From a virus: a stretch of DNA of 22,993 bases. The stretch spans positions 1 to 22,993 of the IMG/VR virus record IMGVR_UViG_3300008450_000489; one strand, given 5' to 3'. A program made the position numbers and the translations under genes. This document shows, one piece after another, positions 7,166 to 20,897 of the stretch (positions are counted from its first letter, which is position 1; each line of letters opens with the position of its first letter). The notes beneath the pieces were generated by a model. That model saw only the letters and a program-made list of their open reading frames with translations. It had not been told where the DNA came from and made no database searches.

Positions 7166-8554
7166 ATGGCACTCACCTACACCGGAACTGGCGGACTCTT
7201 CACGCGACTCGGCGCTCTGGTCTACATGATGGATCAGGTGAGGACGCACCAGAACAACCTCAAGACGCTCCTCGCGAACGTGCAAGCCGAGTACTCCTCG
7301 AGCGATGCTTGGATGATCGACGTGCTTTCCGGTGGCATCGAGGGACGGATCGCCGAGGCGGGAAACGTGCTGAACGACGTCCGAGCCGCGGCCGAGCGCA
7401 CGATCCTCGAGATGTGCTTCGCCGAGGCGATCGCATCCGGTGCGACGAACACGATGGTCCGAAAGGAGATCCGCGAGGCGCTGATCTGGCTCATCCGCCA
7501 GATGGACGCGGACACGAAGACCGTCGACGGAACGACGATCACAAAGTCGAGTCTCGCGGTCGGAGCGAGCAACAACGGCAACGGGAAGTTCTACTACTAC
7601 TTCGAGGCTCCGCACATCCTGCTCGGCTCGACGGCCGACTGGCCGAACATCCGCACGGAAGTCCTCGAAGCGCGATGCGTTCAAGACGGCGTGTCCGGCG
7701 CGATCTCGCGCGGCTCGGAGATCTTCGAGATCCGCGGCCAGCCTGCGTACCAAGGACTCGACTATCGCTTCCCCGGCGGAAGCGGAACGTTGATGCGCTT
7801 GGTGACGTGCTGCGCGAGCGTCGACAACGGCATCCCCGGACAGAACATCCTCCACAACTCCGACCTCGAGGACCAGACCTCAAACCTACCGGATCGCTTC
7901 ACGCTCTCGAGCGGAACGGCTGGCACGGAGTTCCTAACCGAGACGACGGCGGCGAATGTCTTCCGCGGCTCGAAGTCTCTGAAACTTGCCGTGACTGGAA
8001 ACGTCTTCAAGATCCGCCAGCGGCTCGCGGACTTCGACGGGACGCTCGGCCGGCTCACGCCGGATCGGCCGTACCTCATCGCGGTCGCGATCAAGAAGGA
8101 CACGACGGCGACTGGAACGCTTCGGATCAGCGTGCAGGACTCGAGCGGCACGATCATCGGCACATCAAACGAGTTCTTCCTCTCGCAGTCGATCGCGGCG
8201 ACGACGACTTCGTTCCTCATCTACTCGGCGACGGTGCGCTCTCCGCGAGTCATTCCATCCGAGGTGTATCTCGTCGTTGAGACGACTTCGGCGATCGCGA
8301 CCGATTCGGTCTACATCGACGAGATCATCGTCGCGGAGATGATGCCGATCGCGGCTGGCGGTCCTGCGCTCGCGATCGTCGCAGGATCGACGGACTGGAG
8401 CGCGGACGACAACGCTCGGTACACGTTCACGAACAACAACGAGGGCGCATTCGTACGGGCCTTCGATCGCTTGTTCGATATGTACGGCAAGGGACTTAGC
8501 CTTCCGCAGGACTACTCCGGCACCGAGAACATCGACGACGCTCTGATCGCTTGA
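7166..8554 (+). CDS. Large virion protein with carbohydrate-binding-like domain
   Basis: 462 residues, preceded by AGAAGGG and a two-base gap. Residues 1-120 are helical and open with YTGTGGLFTRLGALVY, an N-terminus I associate with phage structural proteins. Residues about 120-220 are beta-rich. Residues about 228-395 read as a galactose-binding or CBM-like sandwich: it starts NILHNSDLEDQTSNLPDRF, has a GSKSLKLAV strand and DRPYLIAVAIKKDT, and closes with TDSVYIDEIIVAEM, the usual order in CBM4/9-like folds. As the last gene of the late tail operon it is a candidate receptor-contact protein. The extreme 3' end overlaps a minus-strand gene by 59 bases. Confidence 0.65.
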   Translation: MALTYTGTGGLFTRLGALVYMMDQVRTHQNNLKTLLANVQAEYSSSDAWMIDVLSGGIEGRIAEAGNVLNDVRAAAERTILEMCFAEAIASGATNTMVRKEIREALIWLIRQMDADTKTVDGTTITKSSLAVGASNNGNGKFYYYFEAPHILLGSTADWPNIRTEVLEARCVQDGVSGAISRGSEIFEIRGQPAYQGLDYRFPGGSGTLMRLVTCCASVDNGIPGQNILHNSDLEDQTSNLPDRFTLSSGTAGTEFLTETTAANVFRGSKSLKLAVTGNVFKIRQRLADFDGTLGRLTPDRPYLIAVAIKKDTTATGTLRISVQDSSGTIIGTSNEFFLSQSIAATTTSFLIYSATVRSPRVIPSEVYLVVETTSAIATDSVYIDEIIVAEMMPIAAGGPALAIVAGSTDWSADDNARYTFTNNNEGAFVRAFDRLFDMYGKGLSLPQDYSGTENIDDALIA

Positions 8555-8801
8555 TGAGTTCCGCGAGGATCGCGGCTCGCGCTTGCCCGACGAGAAATCG
8601 AAGATCGTCCTCCTCGGCGAGATCGAAAGCCAGCGTGTACAGGTCAAGCGACTGCCACGAGACGGCGAGGAAGTTCGCGCAGCGCGTCGCGCTCCGCTCG
8701 GATGTCTCGAGGATGCAGGCTGACTCGAGGACGGCGGCGACGTGGACGCGAACGCGCCGCGCTTCGAGTTTCTGAAGATTCCGAGGATTTTCTATAGACA
8801 C
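8496..8801 (-). CDS. Minus-strand small protein, divergent from the early operon
   Basis: The only credible minus-strand gene in the window: 101 residues from GTG at 8801 (AGAGG lies upstream). The strongest evidence is codon use. Apart from its first 14 codons and its last 15 or so, the minus frame shows the CTC, GTC, GAG, TTC and ATC preference of the phage, whereas the plus frame across 8551-8775 would give an unnatural Ser/Arg-rich peptide. The protein is helical (HVAAVLESACILETSE, RFLVGQARAAILAELIK) with a basic CSRC tail. It has no clear HTH. Its divergent placement across an operator-like palindrome suggests a control function, but that is inference. The upstream start at 8867 is possible. 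Confidence 0.5.
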   Translation of the reverse strand: MSIENPRNLQKLEARRVRVHVAAVLESACILETSERSATRCANFLAVSWQSLDLYTLAFDLAEEDDLRFLVGQARAAILAELIKRSERRRCSRCRSSPAEG

Positions 8802-8824
8802 GGAGGAGCCTCTTCCGATAGGAT
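8795..8824 (+). promoter_or_regulatory. Candidate early promoter upstream of the RecT-like gene
   Basis: TAGACA at 8795-8800 (one mismatch to TTGACA), an 18-base spacer, then TAGGAT at 8819-8824 as -10. Transcription would start near 8831, at the 5' foot of the leader hairpin. TAGGAT also appears as a -10 candidate before the 11208 gene, and TACGAT before the 13365 gene. Confidence 0.45.
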
Positions 8825-8839
8825 GTCCGCTAGCGGACA
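8824..8839. promoter_or_regulatory. 16-bp perfect palindrome, probable operator
   Basis: TGTCCGCTAGCGGACA is its own reverse complement. It begins at the last base of the candidate -10 box and covers the expected transcription start, the classical place for a repressor site. It lies in the 64-bp gap between the divergent minus-strand gene and the early operon, so one protein bound here could affect both. Candidate binders encoded nearby are the HTH proteins at 13562, 13867 and 9777. Confidence 0.6.
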
Positions 8840-8849
8840 CGGAGTCCGC
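8833..8849 (+). promoter_or_regulatory. Start-associated leader hairpin 1
   Basis: GCGGAC (8833-8838), loop ACGGA, GTCCGC (8844-8849): a 6-bp stem whose 3' end is 16 bases before ATG 8866. The tail holds AAGGAG and GAGACA. The 5' arm is shared with the palindrome at 8824-8839, so the two structures are mutually exclusive in a transcript that contains both. It belongs to the same family as the hairpins at 10365, 11175 and 11482. Confidence 0.6.
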
Positions 8850-8865
8850 AGAAGGAGACATCATC

Positions 8866-9780
8866 ATGTCTATCGTATCTCACGGGATCGCGTCGTCCGC
8901 GATCGAAACCTCCTCGCTCGCTCAAGCCGGAACGAAGGCGCTCGAGGCGTACATCGCTGCGGGTGACATCGGCCGACTCGATCCGAGTCAGCGGATCGCC
9001 TTGTACAAAGCGGTCTGCGACTCGCTCGGCCTCAACCCGCTGACGCAGCCGTTCGAGTACCTCACGCTCAACGGCAAGGTCCAGTTGTACGCGAAGAAGT
9101 CCGCGACCGAGCAGTTGCGGCAGATTCACGGCGTGTCGGTCCTCGCGCTCGAGCAGGAGATGCGAGGAGACATCCTCTGCATGACCGCGCGGGTGCGCGA
9201 CCGATCCGGCCGCGAGGACATCGCGACTGGAGCCGTCAACCTCAAGGGCTTGGCAGGCGAGAACCTTGCCAACGCCTACATGAAGTGCGAGACGAAATCC
9301 AAGCGCCGCGCAACGCTCTCGATCTGCGGCCTTGCGATGCTGGACGAGACGGAGATCGACTCGATCCAAGGGGCGAAGCCCGTCGCGGTCGAGGACTTCC
9401 ATGCTCCGGCCGCGAAGCCAGAACCGAAGCAGATGAAGACGATGACGCGCGAGGAGCGCCGGAAGGACACCGAGGACTTGCTCTCGCCGGTCCCGGTCGC
9501 GTCGGCTCCCGTCGTCGAGACGACGGCGGTCCCGGTCACGCCGGACGCTGAGCGGGTCATCCTCGCTCGCTCGCCGATCTCGGTGGTCGAGGGCAAGTCC
9601 GGCCGTCGCGTCTGGCGCATCGACCAAGAAGACGAGGCTCGGCCGTTCGCCGTCCTCGATGAGCGCGTCGCGTCGATCCTCGAGGCGCAGCAGGCGTTCT
9701 CCCGCAACTCTCTCGTCCGGGTGCGTCAGCGCTCGAACGGCACCCTCGAGATCCTCGAGGTCATCGGAGACGCGAAGTGA
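8866..9780 (+). CDS. RecT-like single-strand annealing protein (putative)
   Basis: 304 residues; AAGGAG eight bases before ATG fixes the start. The N-terminal part (about 30-165) carries the conserved pattern of a phage recombination family: LGLNPLTQPFEYLTLNGK, then QLYAKKSATEQLRQ, then AYMKCETKSKRRATLSICGL followed by LDETEI. I know this block as RecT-like or single-strand annealing protein in phages; it would pair complementary ssDNA during recombination or recombination-driven replication. Residues about 175-225 are a Pro/Ala/Val-rich linker. About 226-304 form a second small domain (RRVWRIDQEDEARPFAVLD, VRVRQRSNGTLEILEV) that I do not recognise. First gene of the early operon behind a strong control region. 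Confidence 0.7.
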   Translation: MSIVSHGIASSAIETSSLAQAGTKALEAYIAAGDIGRLDPSQRIALYKAVCDSLGLNPLTQPFEYLTLNGKVQLYAKKSATEQLRQIHGVSVLALEQEMRGDILCMTARVRDRSGREDIATGAVNLKGLAGENLANAYMKCETKSKRRATLSICGLAMLDETEIDSIQGAKPVAVEDFHAPAAKPEPKQMKTMTREERRKDTEDLLSPVPVASAPVVETTAVPVTPDAERVILARSPISVVEGKSGRRVWRIDQEDEARPFAVLDERVASILEAQQAFSRNSLVRVRQRSNGTLEILEVIGDAK

Positions 9781-10139
9781 AGCGCGTCGAGATTCCCGGC
9801 GCGGTGTCGATCCGCTCGCAGGTCGGAATCCGGCCGGAAGATCCTCGGGTCTTCCGGCCGATCCGGCTCGCCGAGGCGCTGCGGGTGGCGCGGCTGATCC
9901 GGGCCGACGAGTCGATCCCGGAGGAGATCCGGGCGCTGGTCGAGGTGGGCATCCCTCTCGACCTCATGCCTGGACACGTCACCCCGGCGAAGACGGCGCT
10001 CGCCGAGGCGCTTCGCGTCTCGGTGCGGACGATCCGCCGGCGAGAGTTGGCGTGGGAACTTGCGGACCAGCGAGTCCGATTCGATCTTGTCCATCGGGCC
10101 GCGAGGCTGGTGTTCGCTGAGCGAGGCTCAAAGGCATGA
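9777..10139 (+). CDS. Small protein with possible helix-turn-helix
   Basis: 120 residues from the ATG of an ATGA overlap. The N-terminal half (EIPGAVSIRSQVGIRPEDP) is irregular; the centre is helical (LAEALRVARLIRADESI). Residues about 68-90, AKTALAEALRVSVRTIRRRE, read like a helix-turn-helix with a recognition helix SVRTIRRRE. It is the second and last gene before a strong terminator and so shares a transcript with the annealing protein. It could be an accessory regulator or DNA-binding partner. No family is recognised. Confidence 0.55.
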   Translation: MKRVEIPGAVSIRSQVGIRPEDPRVFRPIRLAEALRVARLIRADESIPEEIRALVEVGIPLDLMPGHVTPAKTALAEALRVSVRTIRRRELAWELADQRVRFDLVHRAARLVFAERGSKA

Positions 10140-10145
10140 CGACGC

Positions 10146-10173
10146 GAGCCGGGGAAACCCGGCTCACGTTTTT
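10146..10173 (+). terminator. Rho-independent terminator after the annealing operon
   Basis: GAGCCGGG (10146-10153), GAAA tetraloop, CCCGGCTC (10158-10165), then ACG and five T (10169-10173). The 8-bp perfect GC stem with GNRA loop and T run is a textbook intrinsic terminator seven bases after the stop of the 120-residue gene. Confidence 0.85.
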
Positions 10174-10211
10174 CCGAAATCTGCAAACTTTCCCTCTTTA
10201 CAAGTGCGACT

Positions 10212-10233
10212 CCCTCCCCCCTAATAACCCCCC
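10212..10233 (-). other. C-tract / G-rich minus strand in intergenic gap
   Basis: In the noncoding 10174-10364 stretch the plus strand has CCC, C6 and C6 (10212-10214, 10216-10221, 10228-10233) separated by T and TAATAA, so the minus strand reads G6, six bases, G6, A, G3. That could fold into a G-quadruplex if the six-G runs contribute two tracts. The surrounding 10180-10320 bases are pyrimidine-rich, unlike the coding DNA. I see no gene in this gap. Confidence 0.4.
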
Positions 10234-10320
10234 ACCAGGGACAGATGAGACAACTACGCGTCTCGTGTTCCGGCTCCTGACTCCAAACGTCTTTCGCCTT
10301 CTCTCTCTTCTTCTGGAGAG

Positions 10321-10342
10321 GAGTACGTCGAACGTAGTACTC
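10321..10342. promoter_or_regulatory. Nested inverted repeat with candidate -10, possible operator-promoter
   Basis: GAGTAC (10321-10326) pairs with GTACTC (10337-10342), and inside them TACGT, CGA, ACGTA (10324-10336) forms a second, overlapping inverted repeat. TAGTAC at 10335-10340 could serve as a -10 box for the operon starting at 10395, although no convincing -35 hexamer is visible. The site lies 23 bases before leader hairpin 2. Confidence 0.4.
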
Positions 10343-10364
10343 ACGAGGCGCGATCGCGCGAACC

Positions 10365-10379
10365 CCGGCAGGATGCCGG
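10365..10379 (+). promoter_or_regulatory. Start-associated leader hairpin 2
   Basis: CCGGC (10365-10369), loop AGGAT, GCCGG (10375-10379): a 5-bp stem ending 15 bases before ATG 10395. The tail is a pure purine repeat (AGAGAGAGAG) then ACAGA, containing GAGACA. It has no canonical Shine-Dalgarno downstream of the hairpin; the only AGGA is in the loop. Confidence 0.6.
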
Positions 10380-10394
10380 AGAGAGAGAGACAGA

Positions 10395-11015
10395 ATGACC
10401 AGCGAATCGAAGAAGCCCGGCATGACGCGCGACGAACTCGCGGCCTTCACCGCTCGAGCGAATCGGTATTTCCGCGGCGAGACGGATCGCGAGTTGTGGG
10501 CGCTTGCGCTTCCGCGCATCGCCGAGATGGAGTCGAGCGACGCTCTCGCCGGACTCGAGAACTACGCGATCAACTGGGCCGGACCTCGCGCGAGGTTCAT
10601 CCCGGCGAAGTTCTTCGAGTACGTCGCCGACGTGAGGACTCGGCGTTCCGAGATCGCGCAGCGCGACGCTCGCGTCCGCGAGTCCGATCGCCGGCGGATC
10701 GCATCGAGCCGAGACGCGATGATCTGCGAGGCCGACTGGGCGAGCCTTCGCCGCGAGATCGAGGTCGCGAATCCTCTGCACGTCGGAGAGGCGATCGACG
10801 CGCTCCGCTCGGTCGGATGGGGATCTCCTCCTGCCGCGTTCTCCGACTGGCCGCGACGCTGGATCGTCGCCGTCGCGGATGTCGTCTCCGGTCGGACGTG
10901 CCGAGCCTATAACCCGGACACCGGGAACTTCGACCGGGACGTGCCTGCGCTCGACTTCTACCGGATGGCCGGAAAGCCGCCGTCCGTCGCCGTAGGGGCG
11001 CTTGGGCCGTTCTGA
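10395..11015 (+). CDS. Putative replication accessory protein (helicase-loader-like)
   Basis: 206 residues. The N-terminal 70 residues have a helical repeat, ELAAFTARANRYFRG, ELWALALPRIAEMESSDAL, then LENYAINWAGPRARFIPAKF. This resembles phage replisome organiser or helicase-loader N-domains, where a short helical bundle ends in a segment like FIP or FPP. This is a weak, pattern-level similarity. The middle is Arg-rich and the C-terminus is irregular (YNPDTGNFDRDVPALDFY). It has its own leader hairpin and probably its own promoter. If the loader idea is right, it would bring a host helicase to the phage origin, for which the adjacent 10174-10394 gap is a candidate. Confidence 0.5.
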   Translation: MTSESKKPGMTRDELAAFTARANRYFRGETDRELWALALPRIAEMESSDALAGLENYAINWAGPRARFIPAKFFEYVADVRTRRSEIAQRDARVRESDRRRIASSRDAMICEADWASLRREIEVANPLHVGEAIDALRSVGWGSPPAAFSDWPRRWIVAVADVVSGRTCRAYNPDTGNFDRDVPALDFYRMAGKPPSVAVGALGPF

Positions 11016-11034
11016 GGGCGTCCGGGCCGTCCAG

Positions 11035-11049
11035 AGCGCCGAGGGCGCT
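11035..11049 (+). terminator. Hairpin after the 206-residue gene (weak terminator candidate)
   Basis: AGCGCC (11035-11040), GAG loop, GGCGCT (11044-11049): a 6-bp perfect GC stem 19 bases after the stop. Only a short TTT follows, seven bases later, so an intrinsic terminator is possible but weak. Confidence 0.35.
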
Positions 11050-11068
11050 ACGGGGCATTTCCGGAGGT

Positions 11069-11080
11069 CTGTATATACAG
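11069..11080. promoter_or_regulatory. 12-bp palindrome CTGTATATACAG
   Basis: A perfect 12-bp palindrome, AT-centred in a GC-rich genome and inside the noncoding 11016-11207 stretch. It could be an operator or, through TATATA, part of a promoter. It is not a standard E. coli LexA box, which needs CTG and CAG ten bases apart rather than six. Confidence 0.4.
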
Positions 11081-11093
11081 CGTCCCGATAACA

Positions 11094-11124
11094 GAGAATC
11101 TTGAGAACTTTCGACGGATTCTCA
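11094..11124. promoter_or_regulatory. Overlapping inverted repeats upstream of the 11208 promoter
   Basis: GAGAATC (11094-11100) is the inverse of GATTCTC (11117-11123). A second pair, TGAGAA (11102-11107) and TTCTCA (11119-11124), uses almost the same right arm. Thus two GAGAA half-sites share one TTCTC partner. The element lies about 45-75 bases upstream of the expected transcription start, where an activator or distal operator would sit. Confidence 0.4.
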
Positions 11125-11133
11125 GGCAATCCG

Positions 11134-11162
11134 CTTCCCTCGGCCGATGGAGCGGCTAGGAT
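11134..11162 (+). promoter_or_regulatory. Candidate promoter for the 11208 gene
   Basis: CTTCCC (11134-11139), 17-base spacer, TAGGAT (11157-11162). The -10 is identical to that proposed before the annealing protein gene. Transcription would start near A11169, six bases before leader hairpin 3. The -35 match is weak (CTT of CTTGAC only). Confidence 0.4.
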
Positions 11163-11168
11163 GATCCC

Positions 11169-11231
11169 ATCAACGCCGGCAGGAGCCGGCAGAAAGCGAG
11201 ACAGACAATGAACAATCAGATCGACATCATC
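11169..11231 (+). repeat. Leader-plus-start direct repeat, copy 1
   Basis: This segment and 11475-11537 share ATCAAC, the leader hairpin, AGAAAGCGAGACA, ATGAACAA and GACATCATC in the same order and at equal total length. The duplication covers the untranslated leader and about the first eight codons, then the sequences diverge completely. Confidence 0.8.
11175..11190 (+). promoter_or_regulatory. Start-associated leader hairpin 3
   Basis: GCCGGC (11175-11180), loop AGGA, GCCGGC (11185-11190): a 6-bp stem with a tetraloop that is the Shine-Dalgarno-like AGGA. The stem ends 17 bases before ATG 11208. The tail is AGAAAGCGAGACAGACA. Confidence 0.65.
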
Positions 11232-11417
11232 GCGACCGCCGAAGGACAGAACTTCCGACTCACCCCGATCTCGAAGTTTGCTCGCGAGTACTTCGGCCTC
11301 AAGTTTGGCGGAAGCGCAGAGATGACGGTCGAATCCGTCGAGGTCGACTCGATCCAACTCGGTCGACTCCTCCGTTGGTGCGATCAGGCTCGCGCCGTCG
11401 TCATGATGGTCGATTGA
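11208..11417 (+). CDS. Small early protein (unknown)
   Basis: 69 residues. The first codons (MNNQIDII) resemble those of the 11514 gene (MNNRTDII) because the leader and start are duplicated; the rest of the protein is unrelated at sight. It is mildly acidic with a strand-like SAEMTVESVEVDSIQL segment and a final helix (LGRLLRWCDQARAVVMMVD). It stands alone between a promoter plus leader and a strong hairpin, a layout typical of highly expressed small phage proteins that bind host factors. No family is recognised. Confidence 0.65.
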   Translation: MNNQIDIIATAEGQNFRLTPISKFAREYFGLKFGGSAEMTVESVEVDSIQLGRLLRWCDQARAVVMMVD

Positions 11418-11431
11418 GACGACTCGGAACG

Positions 11432-11455
11432 GGGGAGCCTCGCGAGAGGCTCCCC
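11432..11455 (+). terminator. 10-bp hairpin with GCGA tetraloop
   Basis: GGGGAGCCTC (11432-11441), GCGA, GAGGCTCCCC (11446-11455): a perfect 10-bp stem with a GNRA loop, 14 bases after the stop of the 69-residue gene. No T run follows, so it may be an attenuator, an RNA-stabilising 3' end or a processing site rather than a full intrinsic terminator. Confidence 0.55.
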
Positions 11456-11474
11456 GACTCCGCGCCGTCGCGGA

Positions 11475-11537
11475 ATCAACATCCGGCAAGGAGCCGGAAG
11501 AAAGCGAGACACAATGAACAACCGAACCGACATCATC
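11475..11537 (+). repeat. Leader-plus-start direct repeat, copy 2
   Basis: Second copy of the 63-bp leader repeat (first at 11169-11231). Differences between the stems are compensated: TCCGGC faces GCCGGA here while GCCGGC faces GCCGGC in copy 1. No TAGGAT-type -10 box accompanies this copy, so it is probably expressed by read-through past the 11432 hairpin. Confidence 0.8.
11482..11498 (+). promoter_or_regulatory. Start-associated leader hairpin 4
   Basis: TCCGGC (11482-11487), loop AAGGA, GCCGGA (11493-11498): a 6-bp stem ending 15 bases before ATG 11514. The AAGGAG sequence lies in the loop and first stem base, 22 bases upstream of the ATG, too far for normal initiation; the tail AGAAAGCGAGACACA holds only a weak GAG. 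Confidence 0.65.
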
Positions 11538-11789
11538 ACATTCGCCGACTACGAGGCGACCGCGCTTCGCTTCATCGCGAACGCATTCGAGGCACTCGAG
11601 ACGGAAACCGCGCTCGGGCGCGAGCAAGCCAGACTCTTCAGCGATCGAGCGCTTGAGGTGTTCAAGATGCAACCGAAACTCAACGTGCGCGGCGGCATCG
11701 TTCGCGAGCGCTGGCTCGATCTTCAGAAGGCTCGATACTCGTTCACGCTTCCGACGATTGACGTCGAGATCGCGAAGGTGGAGCGATGA
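11514..11789 (+). CDS. Small early protein (unknown)
   Basis: 91 residues, mostly helical: DYEATALRFIANAFEALETE, then REQARLFSDRALEVFKM, then a basic RGGIVRERWLDLQKA and a strand-like final PTIDVEIAKVER. The start is fixed by the leader hairpin and by similarity of its first eight codons to the 11208 gene. It heads a tightly overlapping operon (ATGA with the next gene) that runs through the lysozyme-like gene and Gp157-like gene. No family is recognised. Confidence 0.65.
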   Translation: MNNRTDIITFADYEATALRFIANAFEALETETALGREQARLFSDRALEVFKMQPKLNVRGGIVRERWLDLQKARYSFTLPTIDVEIAKVER

Positions 11790-11911
11790 GCGAACTCCTC
11801 GGATGTCTCGGGCTTCTATGGGCCGCCGCGATAGTCGTCGGAATCATCATGATCGAATGGAGACTCTCGCGAATCATGCGAGCGCTTGAACGGAAGGAGG
11901 CGAAGCGATGA
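11786..11911 (+). CDS. Small single-pass membrane protein
   Basis: 41 residues, with ATGA overlaps at both ends (11786-11789 and 11908-11911). Residues about 4-23 (LLGCLGLLWAAAIVVGIIMI) form one hydrophobic helix, followed by a basic tail (EWRLSRIMRALERKEAKR). The topology suggests a short N-out, C-in membrane protein. Placement directly before a secreted lysozyme-like enzyme suggests a role in lysis or superinfection control, but this is only context. Confidence 0.6.
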   Translation: MSELLGCLGLLWAAAIVVGIIMIEWRLSRIMRALERKEAKR

Positions 11912-12315
11912 CGATCCTCATCCTCTCCTCTCTCCTCGCGATCGCTCCGCCAGCCGGCACGGACACGCGAGCGATCCTGGACGCGATTCGCACCGTCGAG
12001 ACGGGCGGCGAGCGCGATCCAGACAACGCGATCGGAGACGGCGGCGACGCGCTGGGCGCGTACCAAATCCATCGCTCGTACTGGCTCGATGCCACCGAGA
12101 AAGATCCAGCGCTTCGATCGCTCGGATACGAGTCGGTGACGGATCGCGCCATCGCCGAGCGCGTCGTCCTCGCGTACCTCACGCGATACTCGCCGAACTG
12201 GAAACTCGACACCGTCTCGCGAATCCACAACGGAGGGCCGCGAGGCCATCTCAAGAACAGCACGAAGGCATACGCGGCGAAGGCCGCGAAGGCCGCGAAG
12301 GAGGCACGACAATGA
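11908..12315 (+). CDS. Secreted lysozyme / transglycosylase-like enzyme
   Basis: 135 residues. A signal-peptide-like N-terminus (ILILSSLLAIAPPAG) with a possible cleavage near residue 16 is followed by a lysozyme-like core: ILDAIRTVETGGERDP, with E31 in the position of a catalytic glutamate, then DALGAYQIHRSYW, the G-x-YQI element shared by goose-type and SLT-type muramidases, and near residue 110 SRIHNGGP. It should cleave peptidoglycan glycan strands. The C-terminus is a Lys/Ala repeat (AKAAKAAKEARQ) that could bind anionic wall polymers. It lies in the early cluster, well away from the holin genes at 16728-17718. Confidence 0.75.
   Translation: MTILILSSLLAIAPPAGTDTRAILDAIRTVETGGERDPDNAIGDGGDALGAYQIHRSYWLDATEKDPALRSLGYESVTDRAIAERVVLAYLTRYSPNWKLDTVSRIHNGGPRGHLKNSTKAYAAKAAKAAKEARQ
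12277..12302 (+). repeat. 9-bp tandem repeat in the lysozyme tail
   Basis: Unit GCGAAGGCC, almost three copies (12277, 12286 and a partial at 12295), encoding the AAK-type C-terminal repeat of the lysozyme-like protein. The number of units could vary by slippage. Confidence 0.7.
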
Positions 12316-12605
12316 GAGAGGACAATCGAACCGAGGGCGACATCTGGATCAGGCTCGAGCGCGACGACCTCGAGGTCGGCAAGGAGGCAGTCGACTTGAT
12401 CGCGTGGGTCGAGGGACTTTCGCTCGGAAGCGAGGACGAACCAACCGTGACGTTCCTCGCGCACAAGGTCGGCGAGGAACTCGGGTCGAGTGAGAACATC
12501 TGGAACATCTCGGTCAAGCGGCTTCGCGCTCTCTGCGACGCAGCAGAGGCCATGCACAAGGTCGGCGTCCAGCAGTTCGACGCGCACGAAGGGAGCGCCA
12601 AGTGA
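12312..12605 (+). CDS. Acidic hypothetical protein
   Basis: 97 residues from the ATG of an ATGA overlap. It is acidic and helical: IWIRLERDDLEVGKEAVDLI, then TFLAHKVGEELGSSENIWN, then SVKRLRALCDAAEAMHKVGV. No enzyme motif or membrane segment. The strict overlaps with the lysozyme-like gene and the Gp157-like gene show a single coupled operon. The function is unknown. Confidence 0.6.
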   Translation: MREDNRTEGDIWIRLERDDLEVGKEAVDLIAWVEGLSLGSEDEPTVTFLAHKVGEELGSSENIWNISVKRLRALCDAAEAMHKVGVQQFDAHEGSAK

Positions 12606-13126
12606 AACAAACGCTCTACAACATCGCCGACGATCTCCGCGCACTCGAGGCGCTTCTCGTCGAGGCTGGCGGCGACATCTCCTCACCGGAGGCGCTCGCC
12701 GCAGTCGAGGCGTGGGAGGCCGAACTCTCGACCAACCTCTCCGGCAAGATCGACAACTACTGCGGCCTTATCACCGAGATCGAGGTCCGCGCGGCCGCAA
12801 GGCAGGCCGAGTCGGATCGCCTTCGCGATCTTGCTCGCGTCGACGAGAACGCGGCGAAGGCGCTCCGGGAGCGGCTGCTCTTCGTCCTCCAGACGAGGAA
12901 CGTCCCGAAGGTCGACACCGAGCGATTCAGAGTCAGCGTCTCGCGGAACGGCGGCAAGGCTCCACTCGACATCCGTGTTGGTGCCGACGAACTTCCCGCG
13001 TGGGCCGTCAAGCGAAAGACCGTCGTCGAGACGGACAAGGACGCGATCCGCGCTCGGCTTGAATCCGGAGAGGCGCTTCCGTTCGCGTCGCTGATGGAGC
13101 GAGGATCGAGGCTAGTCATCCGATGA
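12602..13126 (+). CDS. Siphovirus Gp157-like protein
   Basis: 174 residues from the GTG of a GTGA overlap. The order of features matches Gp157: an N-terminal helix with acidic residues (LYNIADDLRALEALLVEAGG), a central coiled coil (KIDNYCGLITEIEVRAAARQ to ALRERLLFVLQTRNV), then KVDTERFRVSVSRNGGKAPL and a C-terminal segment with DKDAIRARLESGEALPFASL. Family members are widespread in siphoviruses near recombination genes. Their function is not firmly established (resistance to infection has been suggested for the founding member). The family call is fairly secure. Confidence 0.8.
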   Translation: MKQTLYNIADDLRALEALLVEAGGDISSPEALAAVEAWEAELSTNLSGKIDNYCGLITEIEVRAAARQAESDRLRDLARVDENAAKALRERLLFVLQTRNVPKVDTERFRVSVSRNGGKAPLDIRVGADELPAWAVKRKTVVETDKDAIRARLESGEALPFASLMERGSRLVIR

Positions 13127-13368
13127 ACTCGATCGACACCCGAAGGCCGTATCTCTCAAAGCACGTTCGCGCAGGACTCGGCGAGATCCTCTCTCGGACT
13201 CACGCCGAGACTGACGACGAACTCGACGCGCTGCGATGGCTTCGCCGCACCCTCGACCGTGCTACGATGCTCGCGCCGAAAGCGCACGACGCGCAGTCTC
13301 CCGGTGGGCTGGCTGGGGAGGGAAACCTCCCCGGCCGCTCAGGAGAGGAGACAGAGGAGGCAACATGA
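13123..13368 (+). CDS. Small hypothetical protein overlapping a promoter-leader
   Basis: 81 residues from an ATGA overlap. The N-terminal 50 residues (PYLSKHVRAGLGEILSRTH, DELDALRWLRRTLDRATML) look like a real helical protein. The C-terminal 30 (SPGGLAGEGNLPGRSGEETEEAT) are low-complexity because the DNA there also forms a promoter-like box and an 11-bp hairpin leader for the next gene. The coding sequence may therefore carry two functions at its 3' end. The function is unknown. Confidence 0.5.
   Translation: MNSIDTRRPYLSKHVRAGLGEILSRTHAETDDELDALRWLRRTLDRATMLAPKAHDAQSPGGLAGEGNLPGRSGEETEEAT
13240..13268 (+). promoter_or_regulatory. Candidate internal promoter for the 13365 operon
   Basis: CTTCGC (13240-13245), 17 bases, TACGAT (13263-13268), followed by a 97-base leader. 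The -10 differs by one base from the TAGGAT boxes proposed at 8819 and 11157. It lies inside the 13123 gene. Confidence 0.4.
13311..13336 (+). promoter_or_regulatory. Leader hairpin 5 (divergent) with GAAA tetraloop
   Basis: GGCTGGGGAGG (13311-13321), GAAA (13322-13325), CCTCCCCGGCC (13326-13336): an 11-bp stem with one G-T pair. No T run follows. Downstream, 13341-13359 is purine-rich with several GGA triplets, GAGACA at 13348-13353 and AGGAGG as Shine-Dalgarno for ATG 13365. It shares GAGACA with leaders 1-4 but has a different loop. Confidence 0.5.
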
Positions 13369-13565
13369 AGACACAAGAACCACGAAACCCGCGCTTCGGA
13401 TACGTCGGCCGCAACGTCTTCGAGGGCGATCGCATCTACCTTGAGCGCGATGGAGTCGAACTCGGCTTCATCGACTTCAAGCGCATTCCGCATGACGTTC
13501 GCGTGTCGATCGTCCTCGCATTCGACAAGGACATCCGCATCTCGCGGAGAGAGGAGGAGCGATGA
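13365..13565 (+). CDS. Small hypothetical protein
   Basis: 66 residues. ATG 13365 follows a strong AGGAGG and forms an ATGA overlap with the previous stop; the frame open from 13236 is a shadow. Compact and probably beta-rich: GYVGRNVFEGDRIYLERD, GVELGFIDFKRI, VSIVLAFDKDIRISR. It could be a small SH3-like or OB-like fold, but that is a guess. It is followed at once by an HTH regulator through another ATGA overlap. Confidence 0.6.
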   Translation: MKTQEPRNPRFGYVGRNVFEGDRIYLERDGVELGFIDFKRIPHDVRVSIVLAFDKDIRISRREEER

Positions 13566-13870
13566 ACCGCAGAATCTCGAAGTCGATCGAGAATCCCGTC
13601 GTCCTCTCGACGAAGACGCGAGGAGAAATCGCGGTCCTCGCGTCCTCCGCTTCAAAGATCGTCTCCGCTATCTGCTATTCGGAGGAGGCTCGACGGATGC
13701 ACGGACCGACAGCCGTCAAAATCGCGAAGGGTCGCGGATCTCTCCGCAGTCTCGCGAAACGCTGCGGACTCTCTCCGACCTATCTCTCTCTGATCCAGAA
13801 GAAGAAGACCCTCATCTCTCCGGGAGCGTTCGTCCTTCTGGTTCAGATATGCGCGGAGGTCGAGCGATGA
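13562..13870 (+). CDS. XRE/Cro-type HTH regulator (putative)
   Basis: 102 residues. Residues about 55-95 show a Cro/C1-type helix-turn-helix: RGSLRSLAKRCGLSPTYLS then LIQKKKTLISPGAFVLLVQI, where SLAKRCGLS is helix 2 and SPTYLSLIQKKK the recognition helix. The N-terminal 50 residues are a basic, Ser-rich extension. It is a candidate for binding the palindromes at 8824, 10321 or 11069. No integrase is seen, so it need not be a lysogeny repressor. Confidence 0.7.
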   Translation: MNRRISKSIENPVVLSTKTRGEIAVLASSASKIVSAICYSEEARRMHGPTAVKIAKGRGSLRSLAKRCGLSPTYLSLIQKKKTLISPGAFVLLVQICAEVER

Positions 13871-14208: not shown

Positions 14209-14546
14209 CGACATCATCGGACAGATACAGCGGAGAAACCGGACTCGCTCGAATCAATGGAGTCATCGACTACCTCCTCGAGTTGCAAGGCGAAGTCGAC
14301 AACGACGAAAGACAGCACCTCGAGATCATGATCGCAGACCTACGGCAGGCCGTGATGTGCGTTCGCGCCGCGGAGTATCGCGCGAAGTGCGCTGTCGAGG
14401 AACGCGACGAGGCGAGGCGGTGGCTTTGCCATGTTCTTGCCAAGCCAACCTCGGTGATGGGGCTTGCCGTTCCAGGAAACGGCACGAAGCATGATTTTGC
14501 AAAGGAGCAGGGCTGGGACTGCTTTGAGGAGCCGAAAGCCAAATGA
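14205..14546 (+). CDS. Hypothetical protein with compositionally foreign 3' end
   Basis: 113 residues. The first 75 are helical and acidic (ARINGVIDYLLELQGEVDND, EIMIADLRQAVMCVRAAEYR) with phage-like codons. From about 14410 codon use changes (TTT, TTG, CTT, CCA, GCA) and stays changed through the following methyltransferase gene, suggesting a recombination joint inside this gene. The C-terminal AVPGNGTKHDFAKEQGWDCF looks like a short separate module. No family is recognised. Confidence 0.6.
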   Translation: MTTSSDRYSGETGLARINGVIDYLLELQGEVDNDERQHLEIMIADLRQAVMCVRAAEYRAKCAVEERDEARRWLCHVLAKPTSVMGLAVPGNGTKHDFAKEQGWDCFEEPKAK

Positions 14547-15853
14547 AATACATGAGCGTCTGCTCTGGCATTGAGGCCGCGAGTGTGGCTTGGCATCATC
14601 TCGGCTGGGAACCTGTCGCGTTCAGCGAGATAGAAGCGTTCCCGAGCGCGGTACTCGCGCATAGATTTCCTAACGTTCCTAACTACGGAGACATGACGAA
14701 GTATGCAACTTGGCCCATCAAACCCGGATCGGTTGACCTTCTGGTTGGAGGAACGCCATGTCAATCTTTCTCCGTCGCAGGACTCCGGCAAGGATTGTCC
14801 GACCCACGCGGAGGACTCATGCTCACCTATCTTGAGATCGCTTGTCGTTTACGGCCTAGATGGCTTGTCTGGGAGAACGTCCCCGGCGTCCTGTCATCGG
14901 GGAGCGGACGGGATCTTGGTGCCTTCCTCGGGGCGTTGGGGGAACTGGGGTATGGGTGGGCCTACCGGGTGTTGGACGCTCAATGGGTCAGAACACAACG
15001 GCATCCCCGTGCCGTGCCGCAAAGCCGGCGACGTGTGTTCGTTGTCGGATGTCTTGGAGACGGGGCCGCTGCCGCCGCGGTTCTCTTTGAGCGCGAAAGC
15101 GTGCAGCGGGATTCTGCGCCGCGCCGAGCGCCGAGGCAAGGCGCTCCCGCCGATGCTGAAGCAGGCGTTGGAGCAGGCCGCAGCGTCACAAGCCACGAAG
15201 TAGCGTCGTTCTTGGAAACAACGAGCAATGACTACAGCAGAGCGGATGGCTTCACGATGATCGGTGAGGTGTCTTCGACTATCGCAGCGCGATTCGCAAA
15301 CAGCCGCAACAACCACGAGGAATGTGTGACGCAGCCCGTCGCATCAACCCTCGGCAACCGTGGCCTGCGTTCGCACACGGAACTAGATGGTCACGGGGCG
15401 TACATCCCGCAAGCCGTTGCGCTTGATCTCTACATCGGCGCGATCACGGGCGACGTCGCGGCGACGATGGGAACGCCGGGGGCGAGCGTCAACGCCAGCG
15501 GACCGACCGTGATGCAGGCGCACGGCTTCTACAGCACGGGCGGCACGCACGGCGTGAACCAGCAGCCCGAAGTTTCGCCCCCCGTCAAGGTCGGTAGCGG
15601 CCTTGGCATTCCTTCGCCGCCGGCGGTGGCGCAAGCCATGACCGTGCGCCGCCTCACGCCCCGGGAGTGCGAACGCCTTCAGGGATTCCCCGACGACTGG
15701 ACCCTCATCCCGTGGCGGAAGAAGCCTGCCGACGAGTGTCCGGACGGGCCTAGGTACAAGGCGCTCGGTAATAGCATGGCCGTCAACTGCATGGCGTGGA
15801 TCGGGGAGCGAATCGAACGAACCGATACAGGGAAGCATGAGCAAGACGCATGA
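14543..15853 (+). CDS. DNA C5-cytosine methyltransferase
   Basis: 436 residues with the ordered motifs of C5-MTases: motif I SVCSGIEAA (5-13), motif IV GGTPCQSFSVAG with catalytic C73, motif VI ENVPG (from 111), motif VIII QSRRRVF (160-166), a long variable target-recognition region (about 175-375), motif IX RRLTPRECERLQGFPDDW, and motif X GNSMAVNCM. It would transfer a methyl group from SAM to cytosine, probably to protect phage DNA from restriction. All key residues are present. Codon use is unlike the neighbours (more GGG, TTG, CTT), suggesting recent acquisition. A second open frame (14703-15203) with gene-like codon use lies fully inside it. Confidence 0.92.
   Translation: MKYMSVCSGIEAASVAWHHLGWEPVAFSEIEAFPSAVLAHRFPNVPNYGDMTKYATWPIKPGSVDLLVGGTPCQSFSVAGLRQGLSDPRGGLMLTYLEIACRLRPRWLVWENVPGVLSSGSGRDLGAFLGALGELGYGWAYRVLDAQWVRTQRHPRAVPQSRRRVFVVGCLGDGAAAAAVLFERESVQRDSAPRRAPRQGAPADAEAGVGAGRSVTSHEVASFLETTSNDYSRADGFTMIGEVSSTIAARFANSRNNHEECVTQPVASTLGNRGLRSHTELDGHGAYIPQAVALDLYIGAITGDVAATMGTPGASVNASGPTVMQAHGFYSTGGTHGVNQQPEVSPPVKVGSGLGIPSPPAVAQAMTVRRLTPRECERLQGFPDDWTLIPWRKKPADECPDGPRYKALGNSMAVNCMAWIGERIERTDTGKHEQDA
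14703..15203 (+). CDS. Overlapping alternative-frame gene nested in the C5 methyltransferase
   Basis: 166 codons in a different plus frame, entirely inside the methyltransferase. I recognise the sequence type: FWLEERHVNLSPSQDSGKD, GRTSPASC, VPSSGRWGNWGM, CSLSDVLETG and especially FSLSAKACSGILRRAERRGK resemble conserved hypothetical proteins of phages, often found next to or within dcm-like genes. Visible support: across about 15040-15200 third positions are nearly all G or C in this frame (GTC TTG GAG ACG GGG CCG) but mixed in the methyltransferase frame. The function is unknown. The ATG at 14703 has no clear Shine-Dalgarno, so translation may start elsewhere or depend on coupling. Confidence 0.6.
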   Translation: MQLGPSNPDRLTFWLEERHVNLSPSQDSGKDCPTHAEDSCSPILRSLVVYGLDGLSGRTSPASCHRGADGILVPSSGRWGNWGMGGPTGCWTLNGSEHNGIPVPCRKAGDVCSLSDVLETGPLPPRFSLSAKACSGILRRAERRGKALPPMLKQALEQAAASQATK

Positions 15854-19023: not shown

Positions 19024-19698
19024 ATGGAGAATGAAGAACAGTATCGGTCGCAGGCGATGCAGGATGACTTCGTGTGCAACTGCCTTGACCACAAGCGCGG
19101 AGGCACGTTCGTCGACCTCGGCGCGGGCCACTTCGGTCTAGGATCGAACACATACCGACTCGAGAAAGAACTCGACTGGTTCGGCATCGCTGCGGAGAAG
19201 GAGGAGTCGCTCGCGGTCGAATGGCTTGCAAAGCGCGAGCGCGTTCACTTCTACCGGGACGCATTCGATCCAGCGATCTCTTCTGCGATCCTCCAGTTGT
19301 CCGGCTCGGCTCGAACGATCGACTTCCTCTCGCTCGACCTCGAGCCGCCGGAACTGACGCTCTCGTGTCTCGTCGGTCTGCCGCTCGAACACGTGCGCTT
19401 CGCCGTCATCTGCTGCGAGCATGACATCTATCGGCGCTCCTACGCGATCAAGAACGCGATGCGTGGAGTCCTCGAAGGCTTCGGATACGTGCGCGTCTGC
19501 GAGGACGTTCGCATGGTCGGAATGATCGAGAGAGACGGGAAGCACGAGGCGAATCTCATGCCAGTCGAGGACTGGTGGGTACATCCCGAACTCGTCAACA
19601 TTCGCAAGGCCGCAGCGATCGCCGCGCAGATTCGGATGATTAACGAGAGGATGCAGTCGGACGCGGCCGATCGGATAAACAAGGAGGCCGCGCGATGA
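19024..19698 (+). CDS. FkbM-like SAM-dependent methyltransferase
   Basis: 224 residues behind AGGAGG (19013-19018, six bases before ATG). FkbM-type layout: SQAMQDDFVCNCLDHKRGGT leads into motif I FVDLGAG (29-35), then a conserved acidic tail after the second strand (WFGIAAEKEES, with E58), and at about 100-108 IDFLSLDLE, matching the family DFLSIDVEG element. Relatives O-methylate sugars or other small acceptors. In a phage it might modify virion glycans or host surface sugars. Lys/Asp-rich helices (IAAQIRMINERMQSDAADRI) follow the catalytic domain. Codon use is phage-like. Confidence 0.75.
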   Translation: MENEEQYRSQAMQDDFVCNCLDHKRGGTFVDLGAGHFGLGSNTYRLEKELDWFGIAAEKEESLAVEWLAKRERVHFYRDAFDPAISSAILQLSGSARTIDFLSLDLEPPELTLSCLVGLPLEHVRFAVICCEHDIYRRSYAIKNAMRGVLEGFGYVRVCEDVRMVGMIERDGKHEANLMPVEDWWVHPELVNIRKAAAIAAQIRMINERMQSDAADRINKEAAR

Positions 19699-20897
19699 AC
19701 GTCGAGACTGTCAAGATCGACTCACTCACGTTCGATCCGGCCAACGTGCGAAAGCACGACGAGAAGAACCTCGCGGCGATCAAGGCGAGCCTCAACCGCT
19801 TCGGCCAACAGAAGCCGATCGTCGTCGACGCGAACGGTGTCGTCCGTGCTGGCAACGGAACACTCGCCGCCGCGAAGGCGCTCGGATGGAAAGAGATCCG
19901 CATCGTGCGCTCGGCGCTCACGGGGAGCGAAGCGACGGCCTACGCCATCGCGGACAACCGAAGCGCCGAACTCGCCGAGTGGGACGACGACGCGCTCGCG
20001 CAGACGCTTGCGGCGCTTCAGATCGAGGACGACGCGCTCGCGGAGGCGACTGGCTTCGACTTGAGCGAGATCGAGAAGTTGACGGCTCCGAAGGATGTCG
20101 AGGAGGACGACGTTCCGGAGGCTCCAGTCGATCCGATCACGAAGCCGGGAGACCTTTGGATTCTCGGAGAGCATCGCTTGCTTTGTGGCGACTCGACGAA
20201 GGCAGAGGATGTGGAGCGTCTGATGGCGGGGGCGAAGGCGGATTTGATGCTCACCGATCCGCCGTACAACGTTGCGCTGGGCATGAACGAGACGCCAGAG
20301 CAGGCAAAGAAACGAAACCGCCGGACGGACGGCAAGGTGGTGTCGAACGATCACATGCCGGACGCGGATTTTAGGAAGTTCTTGAACGATTGTTTTTCGA
20401 TCGCGTTCGCGGCTCTCAAGCCCGGCGGTTCGTTCTATGTCTGGCACTCCGACAGCGAAGGTCTTAATTTTCGAGGGGCCGTTGCCGACTGCGGGCAGAA
20501 AACAAGGCAGTGCCTGATATGGAAAAAGTCTTCTTTGATTATGGGGCGACAAGACTATCAGTGGCAGCATGAGCCGTGCCTATATGGCTGGCGCGATGGC
20601 GCTTCGCACGGCTGGTATAGCGACCGTAAGCAAACGACCATTCTGGAATTCGACAAGCCGAGCCGAAGCGAAGACCATCCAACGATGAAGCCCGTGGGGC
20701 TGTTTGCTTACCAGATGGCAAACAGTACCGCTCCGCAAGGGATTTGCTACGACCCATTCCTCGGCTCCGGCACCACGCTCATCGCTGCCGAGCAACTAGG
20801 CCGCAAATGCTACGGCATGGAGATCAGCCCAGCATACTGCGACGTGATCGTCAAGCGATGGGAGAACCTCACAGGAAAGAAGGCGAAACGTGGGTAG
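19695..20897 (+). CDS. ParB-N domain fused to DNA methyltransferase
   Basis: 400 residues. Residues 1-110 are a ParB/Srx-like domain (LTFDPANVRKHDEKNLAAIK, GQQKPIVVDANGVVRAGNG, AYAIADNRSAEL). Residues about 148-400 are a beta-class DNA methyltransferase: motif IV DPPY at 188-191 comes before motif I DPFLGSGTT at 353-361, and HPTMKPVGLF precedes motif I as in N6-adenine/N4-cytosine enzymes. This fusion is common beside phage terminase genes. Codon use shifts near 20160-20220 from the local CTC/GAG pattern to a mixed one (TTT, AAA, TTG), suggesting the catalytic half was acquired separately. Confidence 0.88.
   Translation: MNVETVKIDSLTFDPANVRKHDEKNLAAIKASLNRFGQQKPIVVDANGVVRAGNGTLAAAKALGWKEIRIVRSALTGSEATAYAIADNRSAELAEWDDDALAQTLAALQIEDDALAEATGFDLSEIEKLTAPKDVEEDDVPEAPVDPITKPGDLWILGEHRLLCGDSTKAEDVERLMAGAKADLMLTDPPYNVALGMNETPEQAKKRNRRTDGKVVSNDHMPDADFRKFLNDCFSIAFAALKPGGSFYVWHSDSEGLNFRGAVADCGQKTRQCLIWKKSSLIMGRQDYQWQHEPCLYGWRDGASHGWYSDRKQTTILEFDKPSRSEDHPTMKPVGLFAYQMANSTAPQGICYDPFLGSGTTLIAAEQLGRKCYGMEISPAYCDVIVKRWENLTGKKAKRG

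Follow-up and report, generated by a model that had tools for sequence, protein, structure and literature searches.

Bacterial viruses may use dedicated RNA hairpins, read by a protein of their own, to control the translation of their early genes. The case described here concerns an uncultured bacterial virus (IMG/VR virus record IMGVR_UViG_3300008450_000489), of which we analyzed positions 1 to 22,993, a stretch of 22,993 nucleotides (nt) that we refer to as the window and whose positions serve as coordinates throughout. Four early genes of the window are preceded by a leader made of a short hairpin with GGA in its loop, a tail that contains GAGACA, and the ATG. In this virus and its relatives, such leaders are linked to a gene for a 66-residue protein (13365–13565, + strand) whose likeness to CsrA, the bacterial RNA-binding protein that recognizes hairpins of this kind, is distant and was shown on a homolog. 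Our preferred interpretation, which we consider about two-thirds probable (0.68), is that a phage-encoded, divergent Csr system binds the A(N)GGA hairpins and controls early translation jointly. The virus thus probably runs a private translation switch.

Four Early Genes Share a Hairpin Leader

All four leaders lie on the + strand. Leader 1 (8833–8849; stem GCGGAC/GTCCGC, loop ACGGA) is followed by a 16-nt tail with a Shine–Dalgarno sequence (AAGGAGAC, 8850–8865) and by the ATG at 8866 of a 304-residue gene (8866–9780). We call this gene RecT-like by eye only, its product having no Pfam or PHROGs match. Leader 2 (10365–10379; CCGGC/GCCGG around AGGAT or, alternatively, 6 base pairs (bp) around a GGA triloop) has a 15-nt tail (AGAGAGAGAGACAGA, 10380–10394) and precedes a 206-residue gene with no assigned function (ATG 10395; 10395–11015). 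Leader 3 (11175–11190; GCCGGC/GCCGGC, loop AGGA) has a 17-nt tail (AGAAAGCGAGACAGACA, 11191–11207) and precedes a 69-residue gene (ATG 11208; 11208–11417). Leader 4 (11482–11498; TCCGGC/GCCGGA, loop AAGGA) has a 15-nt tail (AGAAAGCGAGACACA, 11499–11513) and precedes a 91-residue gene (ATG 11514; 11514–11789), the initial codons of which are like those of the 11208 gene. A first-pass annotation of this DNA had described the same succession of stem, loop, tail, and ATG, although with the stems of leaders 2 and 4 swapped; the GAGACA that it placed in tails of 15 to 17 nt is indeed found in all four.

If a loop of AGRA or ANGRA and 5 or more Watson–Crick pairs in the stem are required, the + strand of the window has five hairpins and the − strand one, compared with 0.82 per dinucleotide shuffle of the + strand. 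An ATG stands 11 to 20 nt after three of the five real hairpins vs. 0.06 per shuffle, with a maximum of one in any of 100 shuffles. Leader 2 falls outside this count because its loop is AGGAT. Leaders 3 and 4 have most of the tail in common, and their genes start alike (MNNQIDII and MNNRTDII); this likeness probably reflects one duplication in part, and the four window leaders are therefore not fully independent. When 11208–11240 is set beside 11514–11546, the common tail and first codons show how a leader may spread along with a gene start.

Stems Vary in Related Phages while Pairing Is Kept

A search with the RecT-like protein returned 26 related loci, numbered here with an L, of which 24 (L007–L030) belong to this phage group and two (L031 and L032) are distant. 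Upstream of the RecT-like gene, a −10-like box, GGAGAC, and the hairpin are all retained in the relatives, with changes in the stem: GCGGAC/GTCCGC becomes TCGGAC/GTCCGA in L012, L013, L018, and L025, GCGGAC/GTTCGC in L009, and GCGGC/GCCGC in L026–L028. With the window counted in, a wide scan found 27 loci with a total of 111 leader copies, of which 60 are distinct. The leader lists cover the + strand and require a loop of A(N)GRN, AAGA, AGGA, or AGGT. Twenty-six hairpins with neither GAGA nor GGAG in the tail were dropped, including RecT-block hairpins of L026, L027, and L029, and 111 of the 122 kept after that filter have a tail of the GAGAC/GAGAT type. Because open reading frames (ORFs) of fewer than 38 codons were not counted, the 111 do not include RecT-block leaders that stand before a short ORF, as in L010 and L028. 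A tiny ORF of this kind, roughly 30–40 codons long and hydrophobic by eye, follows the first leader in L009 (~7974), L010 (~7850–7989), and L026–L029, and it overlaps or adjoins the RecT-like start as if translationally coupled. In L026 (~7864–7920) and L027 (~7867–7920), two hairpins stand in tandem, GCGGC/GCCGC with loop AGGA and then CCTCGC...GCGAGG, followed by AGAAGGAGACATC and ATG.

A less biased count was restarted from the tail and not from the stem, using the 64 distinct forward starts with GAGAC(1–9)ATG. A loop hairpin is present at 51 of these 64 tailed starts vs. 8 of 496 other ATG starts, and five of those eight are the same leaders viewed from a neighboring or near-match start. 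On the reverse strand, one of six tailed starts has a hairpin, and it is a true leader of a reversed record (G032). When the loop was left free, a stem of at least 5 bp was found at 55 of the 64 tailed starts, and at 42 of those 55 the loop of the longest hairpin is of the A(N)GRN type. The remaining 13 comprise nine family leaders, with either an extra closing pair or the first leader's competing hairpin, and four unrelated hairpins. Shuffling the 34 nt upstream with the tail kept produced a hairpin in 0.15 of 60 leaders, with a maximum of two.

The inner 5-bp arms occur in 18 distinct combinations in which 90 of 90 cells are paired, compared with a mean of 52 and a maximum of 70 when the 3' arms were re-dealt 2,000 times. 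Since the re-dealt arms had themselves been selected for pairing, the unselected test of pairing is provided by the tail-started and free-loop counts. Pairs were counted by script on arms set by the loop; a MAFFT alignment, made with 44 of the 60 distinct leaders, had put some of the four-base loops in the wrong place. G–U pairs occur in family stems. Because stems vary with pairing kept and G–U pairs are tolerated, the sequences point to hairpins that act at the level of RNA structure rather than as conserved DNA sequence. The first-pass annotation had reached this view from the window stems and had named relatives without conserved pairing or loop as what would count against it; the relatives bear it out. 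We consider it almost certain that the leader family is a real, conserved RNA element, beyond chance.

Two other explanations bear on the hairpins themselves. The inverted repeats could be DNA operators for a phage repressor. In favor of this is a 7+2+7 palindrome that overlaps leader 1 (TGTCCGC-TA-GCGGACA, 8824–8839, + strand), lies by a −10-like box, and is well kept in many relatives; it may be an operator or a competing hairpin. Across the family, however, it is the pairing that is kept and not the sequence, as seen in the 18 arm combinations and the G–U pairs, the palindrome is broken in L009 where the hairpin is intact, and the elements at tailed starts sit on the gene's strand. The operator explanation, which we regard as very improbable, was rejected for the family and retained as a possibility for leader 1 only. 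Alternatively, the hairpins could be passive cis elements, such as 5' mRNA stabilizers or translation-enhancing stems, for which no protein is needed. This would suit leaders that stand just after a −10-like box and, hence, near a 5' end. The hexamer TAGGAT, read from the sequence, lies upstream of both leader 1 (8819–8824, + strand) and leader 3 (11157–11162, + strand), with relatives reading TATAGT or TATACT (TATAGT at leader 1 in many of them), and a transcript from the box before leader 1 would begin at or within the hairpin repeat. Elsewhere, as read from the sequence, a leader comes immediately after a stop codon within an operon (for example, L009 10575 and 10809), and passive elements leave the loop unexplained, it being of the A(N)GRN type in 42 of the 55 free-loop hairpins even though the stem varies. 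We therefore hold passive elements to be improbable.

Known RNA families gave no counterpart. No Rfam match reached the gathering score in the window or in four relatives, and the sole match within 8700–13600 (p27_CRE, E = 0.48) was at chance level, with none at the leaders. No CsrB-type RNA was among the Rfam matches, Rfam being the only search that covered sponge RNAs. Among the 242 matches listed in pattern scans, a true hairpin was present in only two loci, L187 and L227, both of this phage group; 16 other listed matches had 4–5 weak pairs.

The Leaders Are Linked to a Gene for a 66-Residue Protein

The leaders are confined to a block that extends from the leader of the RecT-like gene to the CsrA-like gene. 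In loci with the RecT-like start (~180 kb, + strand), none of 95 copies is found farther than 300 bases upstream of it, and in loci with the CsrA-like gene start (~97 kb, + strand), none of 82 is found beyond it. Structural genes have no leader in the window, as had been noted before, nor in those relatives where structural genes could be tested.

A profile of the 66-residue protein matches 20 of 32 records. Fourteen leader-bearing records, window included, carry the gene 3.2–5.8 kb after the RecT-like start, while L009 and L026 have it at the opposite end of the record, the arrangement that a permuted genome would give. The gene is thus present in 16 of the 16 leader-bearing records that reach its position. 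The gene is absent from both relatives in which tailed leaders are lacking, L031 and L032 (0/2). The unmatched RecT-like records (L008, L010, L012, L014, L016, L018, L019, L022, and L023) end 0.9–4.4 kb past the start, and the longest of them, L023 (4390 bases), stops short of the offset at which its near relatives have the gene (4446 and more). Record G032 (L070), with two leaders on the reverse strand, ends before the position of the regulator. Three further loci, L036, L038, and L039, were found via the CsrA-like protein; they have both leaders and gene and stand outside the 16/16 count.

The gene is itself preceded by a hairpin, leader 5 (13311–13336, + strand), with an 11-bp stem that includes one G–U pair, a GAAA loop, and, in the window, a GGA-rich tail. 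It had been annotated as a fifth leader. Its stem and loop are as then stated, but its homologs keep the long stem with non-GGA loops (GAAA, GCAA, TAAC, TAAA, or longer), on which ground we rejected it as a member of the family; it is rather a different hairpin, which belongs to the candidate regulator gene itself. That the 13365 gene might regulate itself via leader 5 is a guess.

Other features lie nearby. A strong GC hairpin without a T-run stands between the 11208 and 11514 genes (11432–11455, GGGGAGCCTC-GCGA-GAGGCTCCCC); a similar one is seen in L007 and others, and it is perhaps a terminator or a processing site. A cytosine methyltransferase-like gene (14543–15853) and a ParB/methyltransferase-like gene (19695–20897), both named by reading, are outside the leader block.

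A Homolog of the Linked Protein Is Predicted to Have a CsrA-Like Fold

Homologs of the 13365 protein have about 63–68 residues. The homolog from L013 matches the Pfam CsrA family (PF02599) over the β3–β5 part with E = 0.001 and 19.4 bits, which is below the curated cut-off of 27 bits; PF02599 has only two matches in 24 records, and both are this gene. Modeled with AlphaFold from 15 sequences (pLDDT 82.8), the L013 homolog consistently retrieves Csr proteins: 1) its 11 best Foldseek matches of 350,542 PDB chains are CsrA, RsmA, or RsmE (E 0.19–1.2, probability 0.57–0.99), 2) eight of the nine entries listed in a second structural comparison are of the CsrA family (Z 5.9 to 2.6), and 3) seven of its ten best matches in BFVD are named phage Csr proteins (best E 0.0099, probability 1.00). 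Because the best E-values are modest (0.19 in the PDB and 0.0099 in BFVD), the fold claim rests on the uniformity of these lists. The window protein is predicted to have five strands (pLDDT 80.9) and would share the fold of the L013 homolog. In CsrA, R6 and R44 are RNA-contact arginines, and an arginine equivalent to R6 is found, by alignment only, in eight of eight representatives and one equivalent to R44 in five of eight. A search of a phage collection with the L013 protein gave no match. We think it likely that the linked protein has a CsrA-like fold. An RNA-binding protein of the CsrA/RsmA kind had been guessed at in the first-pass annotation, and the 66-residue gene behind leader 5 now offers a concrete candidate, as predicted from sequence and models.

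Most Loops Fit the Csr Recognition Rule

As described for RsmE by Duss et al. (2014, PMC4005645), the Csr/Rsm target is A(N)GGAX on a stem, with N free, and AAGGA and AGGGA pentaloops are cited there as tight binders. A(N)GGA is found in the loop, directly atop the stem and near the start, in all four window leaders and in 38 of the 60 distinct leaders; the other distinct loops are of the GGT or GGC (10), GAA (9), and AGA (2) classes, with one of another kind. In five-base loops, C, A, T, and in one case G are seen as the second base, a freedom that fits the A(N)GGAX rule of RsmE (PMC4005645). The loop ends 18–26 nt and the stem 12–20 nt before the start codon. GGAG occurs in the tail of 40 of the 60 distinct leaders and is a possible second contact. 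The tails of window leaders 2–4 are without GGAG, in keeping with the earlier remark that no canonical Shine–Dalgarno sequence follows these hairpins, but given the 40 tails that have it, a rule by which that sequence stands only in the loop was rejected.

Of the 11 leaders of L013, L025, and L028, 10 have GA instead of GG, vs. 3 of 61 distinct leaders in other phages. For this count, L012/L072, a near copy of L013, was omitted, and the leader common to L018 and L025 was counted with the others. Fisher's test for the split gives P = 6e-10, a value that ignores relatedness and is descriptive only. A concerted loop change within a phage is what would be expected if one trans-acting factor reads all of its leaders. 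Strict concordance per phage is weakened by single GA-type leaders in L007, L008, and L009 and by one GG-type leader in L025. In the protein alignment, columns 38 (S) and 51 (R) are common to L013, L025, and L028 and absent in five others, a pattern that represents two lineages at most. We suggest tentatively, at less than even odds, that in at least two lineages the regulator changed its specificity, A(N)GGA giving way to A(N)GAA, and that nearly all leaders changed to match, within a complete private Csr regulon.

The same loops might instead be read by the CsrA of the host, which would couple early phage translation to host physiology. They do match the known CsrA/RsmE rule (PMC4005645), and phage and host csrA tend to co-occur (PMC8450108). 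However, the leaders stop at the CsrA-like phage gene, with which they go together in 16 of 16 records, and the concerted change in some phages produces loops that CsrA as known would not be expected to recognize. We rate a host reader as improbable. A host search of 84,980 species genomes against the RecT-like alignment gave 292 stretches that fit the pattern, none of which was confirmed.

Observations That Weigh against the Proposed Phage-Encoded Csr System

A number of observations count against the proposed system. Many of the contigs are close relatives, and the counts are therefore not independent. Leader 1 can form a competing hairpin of equal length (stem TGTCCG/CGGACA, loop CTAG), which is also possible at the first leader of many relatives; minimum-energy folds of 8826–8868 and 8815–8868 both use the ACGGA hairpin. 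GGA in the loop, on which the first-pass annotation was centered, holds for the four window leaders but is not invariant in the family, 22 of the 60 distinct leaders having other loops such as ACGAA, ATGAA, or ACGGT, and this has to be set against the description of the core loop bases as not exchangeable (PMC4005645). In addition, since 20 of the 60 tails are without GGAG, a two-site clamp on the Shine–Dalgarno sequence is not general.

For the protein, the CsrA match is below the cut-off and limited to 2 of 11 homologs, a near-identical pair. Searches of Pfam, NCBIfam, and PHROGs gave no match for the window protein, and PF02599 has none on the window. In NCBIfam, MCE (E 6.9e-5 in 4 of 11 homologs) scores better than csrA (E 0.03 in 2 of 11). 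No CsrA chain is among the best 50 of 324 Foldseek matches of the window model, a result that excludes nothing, and in the second comparison RsmN (4krw) ranks fifth with Z 3.4, level with unrelated folds. For neither model did Foldseek give a PDB match at E 0.001 or better, and the BFVD matches of the L013 model also fall short of this value. A profile search of the PDB with the protein family found no CsrA. In profile–profile comparison with eight CsrA sequences, the family scored P 0.042 and L013/L025 scored 0.0064, but a value as low as 0.003 (over 11 columns) was also obtained with one of 18 control families; an earlier run against four CsrA sequences, with poor settings, had no yield. Finally, an arginine equivalent to R44 is present, by alignment only, in just five of eight representatives.

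Some of these points would suit a different small β protein, for example an MCE-like one, whose linkage to the leaders is only synteny: the NCBIfam MCE score (E 6.9e-5 in 4/11) and a window model that does not retrieve CsrA speak for it. For the L013 model, on the other hand, an MCE domain comes 12th, after 11 CsrA-family chains, its Z is 2.3 vs. 5.9 for CsrA, and the BFVD list is topped by phage CsrA. We judge such a protein unlikely, if somewhat less so than a host reader or passive hairpins.

Comparison with Known Systems

The proposed phage system shares with Csr/Rsm (CsrA, RsmA, and RsmE) a loop motif atop a stem near the ribosome-binding site and a small five-strand protein, the latter going by the predicted fold of the L013 homolog. 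It differs in that 1) the protein is phage-encoded and too divergent for the Pfam cut-off, 2) the putative targets are one near-uniform, start-associated family on the phage's own early genes, and 3) the loops are pentaloops or tetraloops instead of the ANGGAX hexaloop, with ANGAA-type loops in some phages.

Of 2517 phages, 30 were reported to carry csrA (PMC7366521). The gene is also reported from many phages and viral contigs, where it was proposed to exploit the repression of CRISPR-Cas by RsmA (PMC8450108), and the csrA of the Bcep22-like phage JC1 is read as a moron gene (PMC9144972). JC1, F116, and Vibrio phages thus resemble the present group in having a csrA-type gene on a phage, but theirs were found by ordinary searches and are read as moron or host-directed genes in the accounts given (PMC9144972, PMC7366521, and PMC8450108). 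Four csrA phages that we scanned (F116 as bases 1–50000 of 65195) have, on each strand, 0 to 4 GGA hairpins that precede an ORF start by at most 30 nt, and none has the repeated GAGAC architecture. In the open-access literature, we found no report in which a phage CsrA is connected with a leader family of the phage. In the csrA-bearing Pseudomonas phage F116 (L080, 1–50000), each of the four + strand GGA-loop hairpins precedes an ORF start by at most 30 nt; three stand at the annotated gene starts 21016, 33550, and 33981, and this phage could be a second, simpler case. In the csrA-bearing Vibrio phage 431E48.2 (L077), an 8-bp stem with an AGGA loop at 25826 is followed by AAGGAG and the ATG of the 25866 gene.

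The start-associated sequence (SAS) of cluster K mycobacteriophages, to which the leaders had been likened, is a conserved 13-bp sequence typically 3–7 bp from the start, with its binder left open (PMC3203893). Both are repeated elements before non-structural gene starts, with AGGA between short complementary ends, but in the leaders the sequence varies with pairing kept and the hairpin stands 12–20 nt from the start. A search for the SAS (GGGATAGGAGCCC) gave two 3-mismatch matches only, below chance expectation and neither at a leader. An identity of the leaders with the cluster K SAS was rejected. Phage Mordin has a similar 26-bp repeat with no known role (PMC4611695). RegA of phage T4 is a functional parallel, being a small phage protein that acts on the initiation regions of many mRNAs (PMC3014915), but its sites are unstructured and A+U rich, and its α-helical core with two β sheets is not the fold of CsrA (PMC3014915).

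Discussion

In the mechanism that we propose, the leaders present an A(N)GGA loop about 18–26 nt upstream of several early starts, and the 13365 protein, of a divergent CsrA/RsmA type, would bind these loops. Bound beside the ribosome-binding site, it would most likely block loading of the 30S subunit and so repress translation, and the early genes—the RecT-like gene and the small genes without assigned function—would be turned down together once the regulator accumulates. Because window leaders 2–4 are without GGAG, activation or stabilization may operate instead.

The phage appears to apply a divergent Csr protein to its own messages via dedicated leaders with variable stems. This offers a testable candidate mechanism for phage start-associated elements, the binder of which was left open in 2011 (PMC3203893). 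The shift in loop sequence, if true, would be a natural re-coding of Csr–RNA recognition that nearly all leaders of each phage follow, and the parallel change from GGA to GAA could supply natural protein–RNA pairs with which to probe a Csr specificity that, for any given protein, has been described as not exchangeable.

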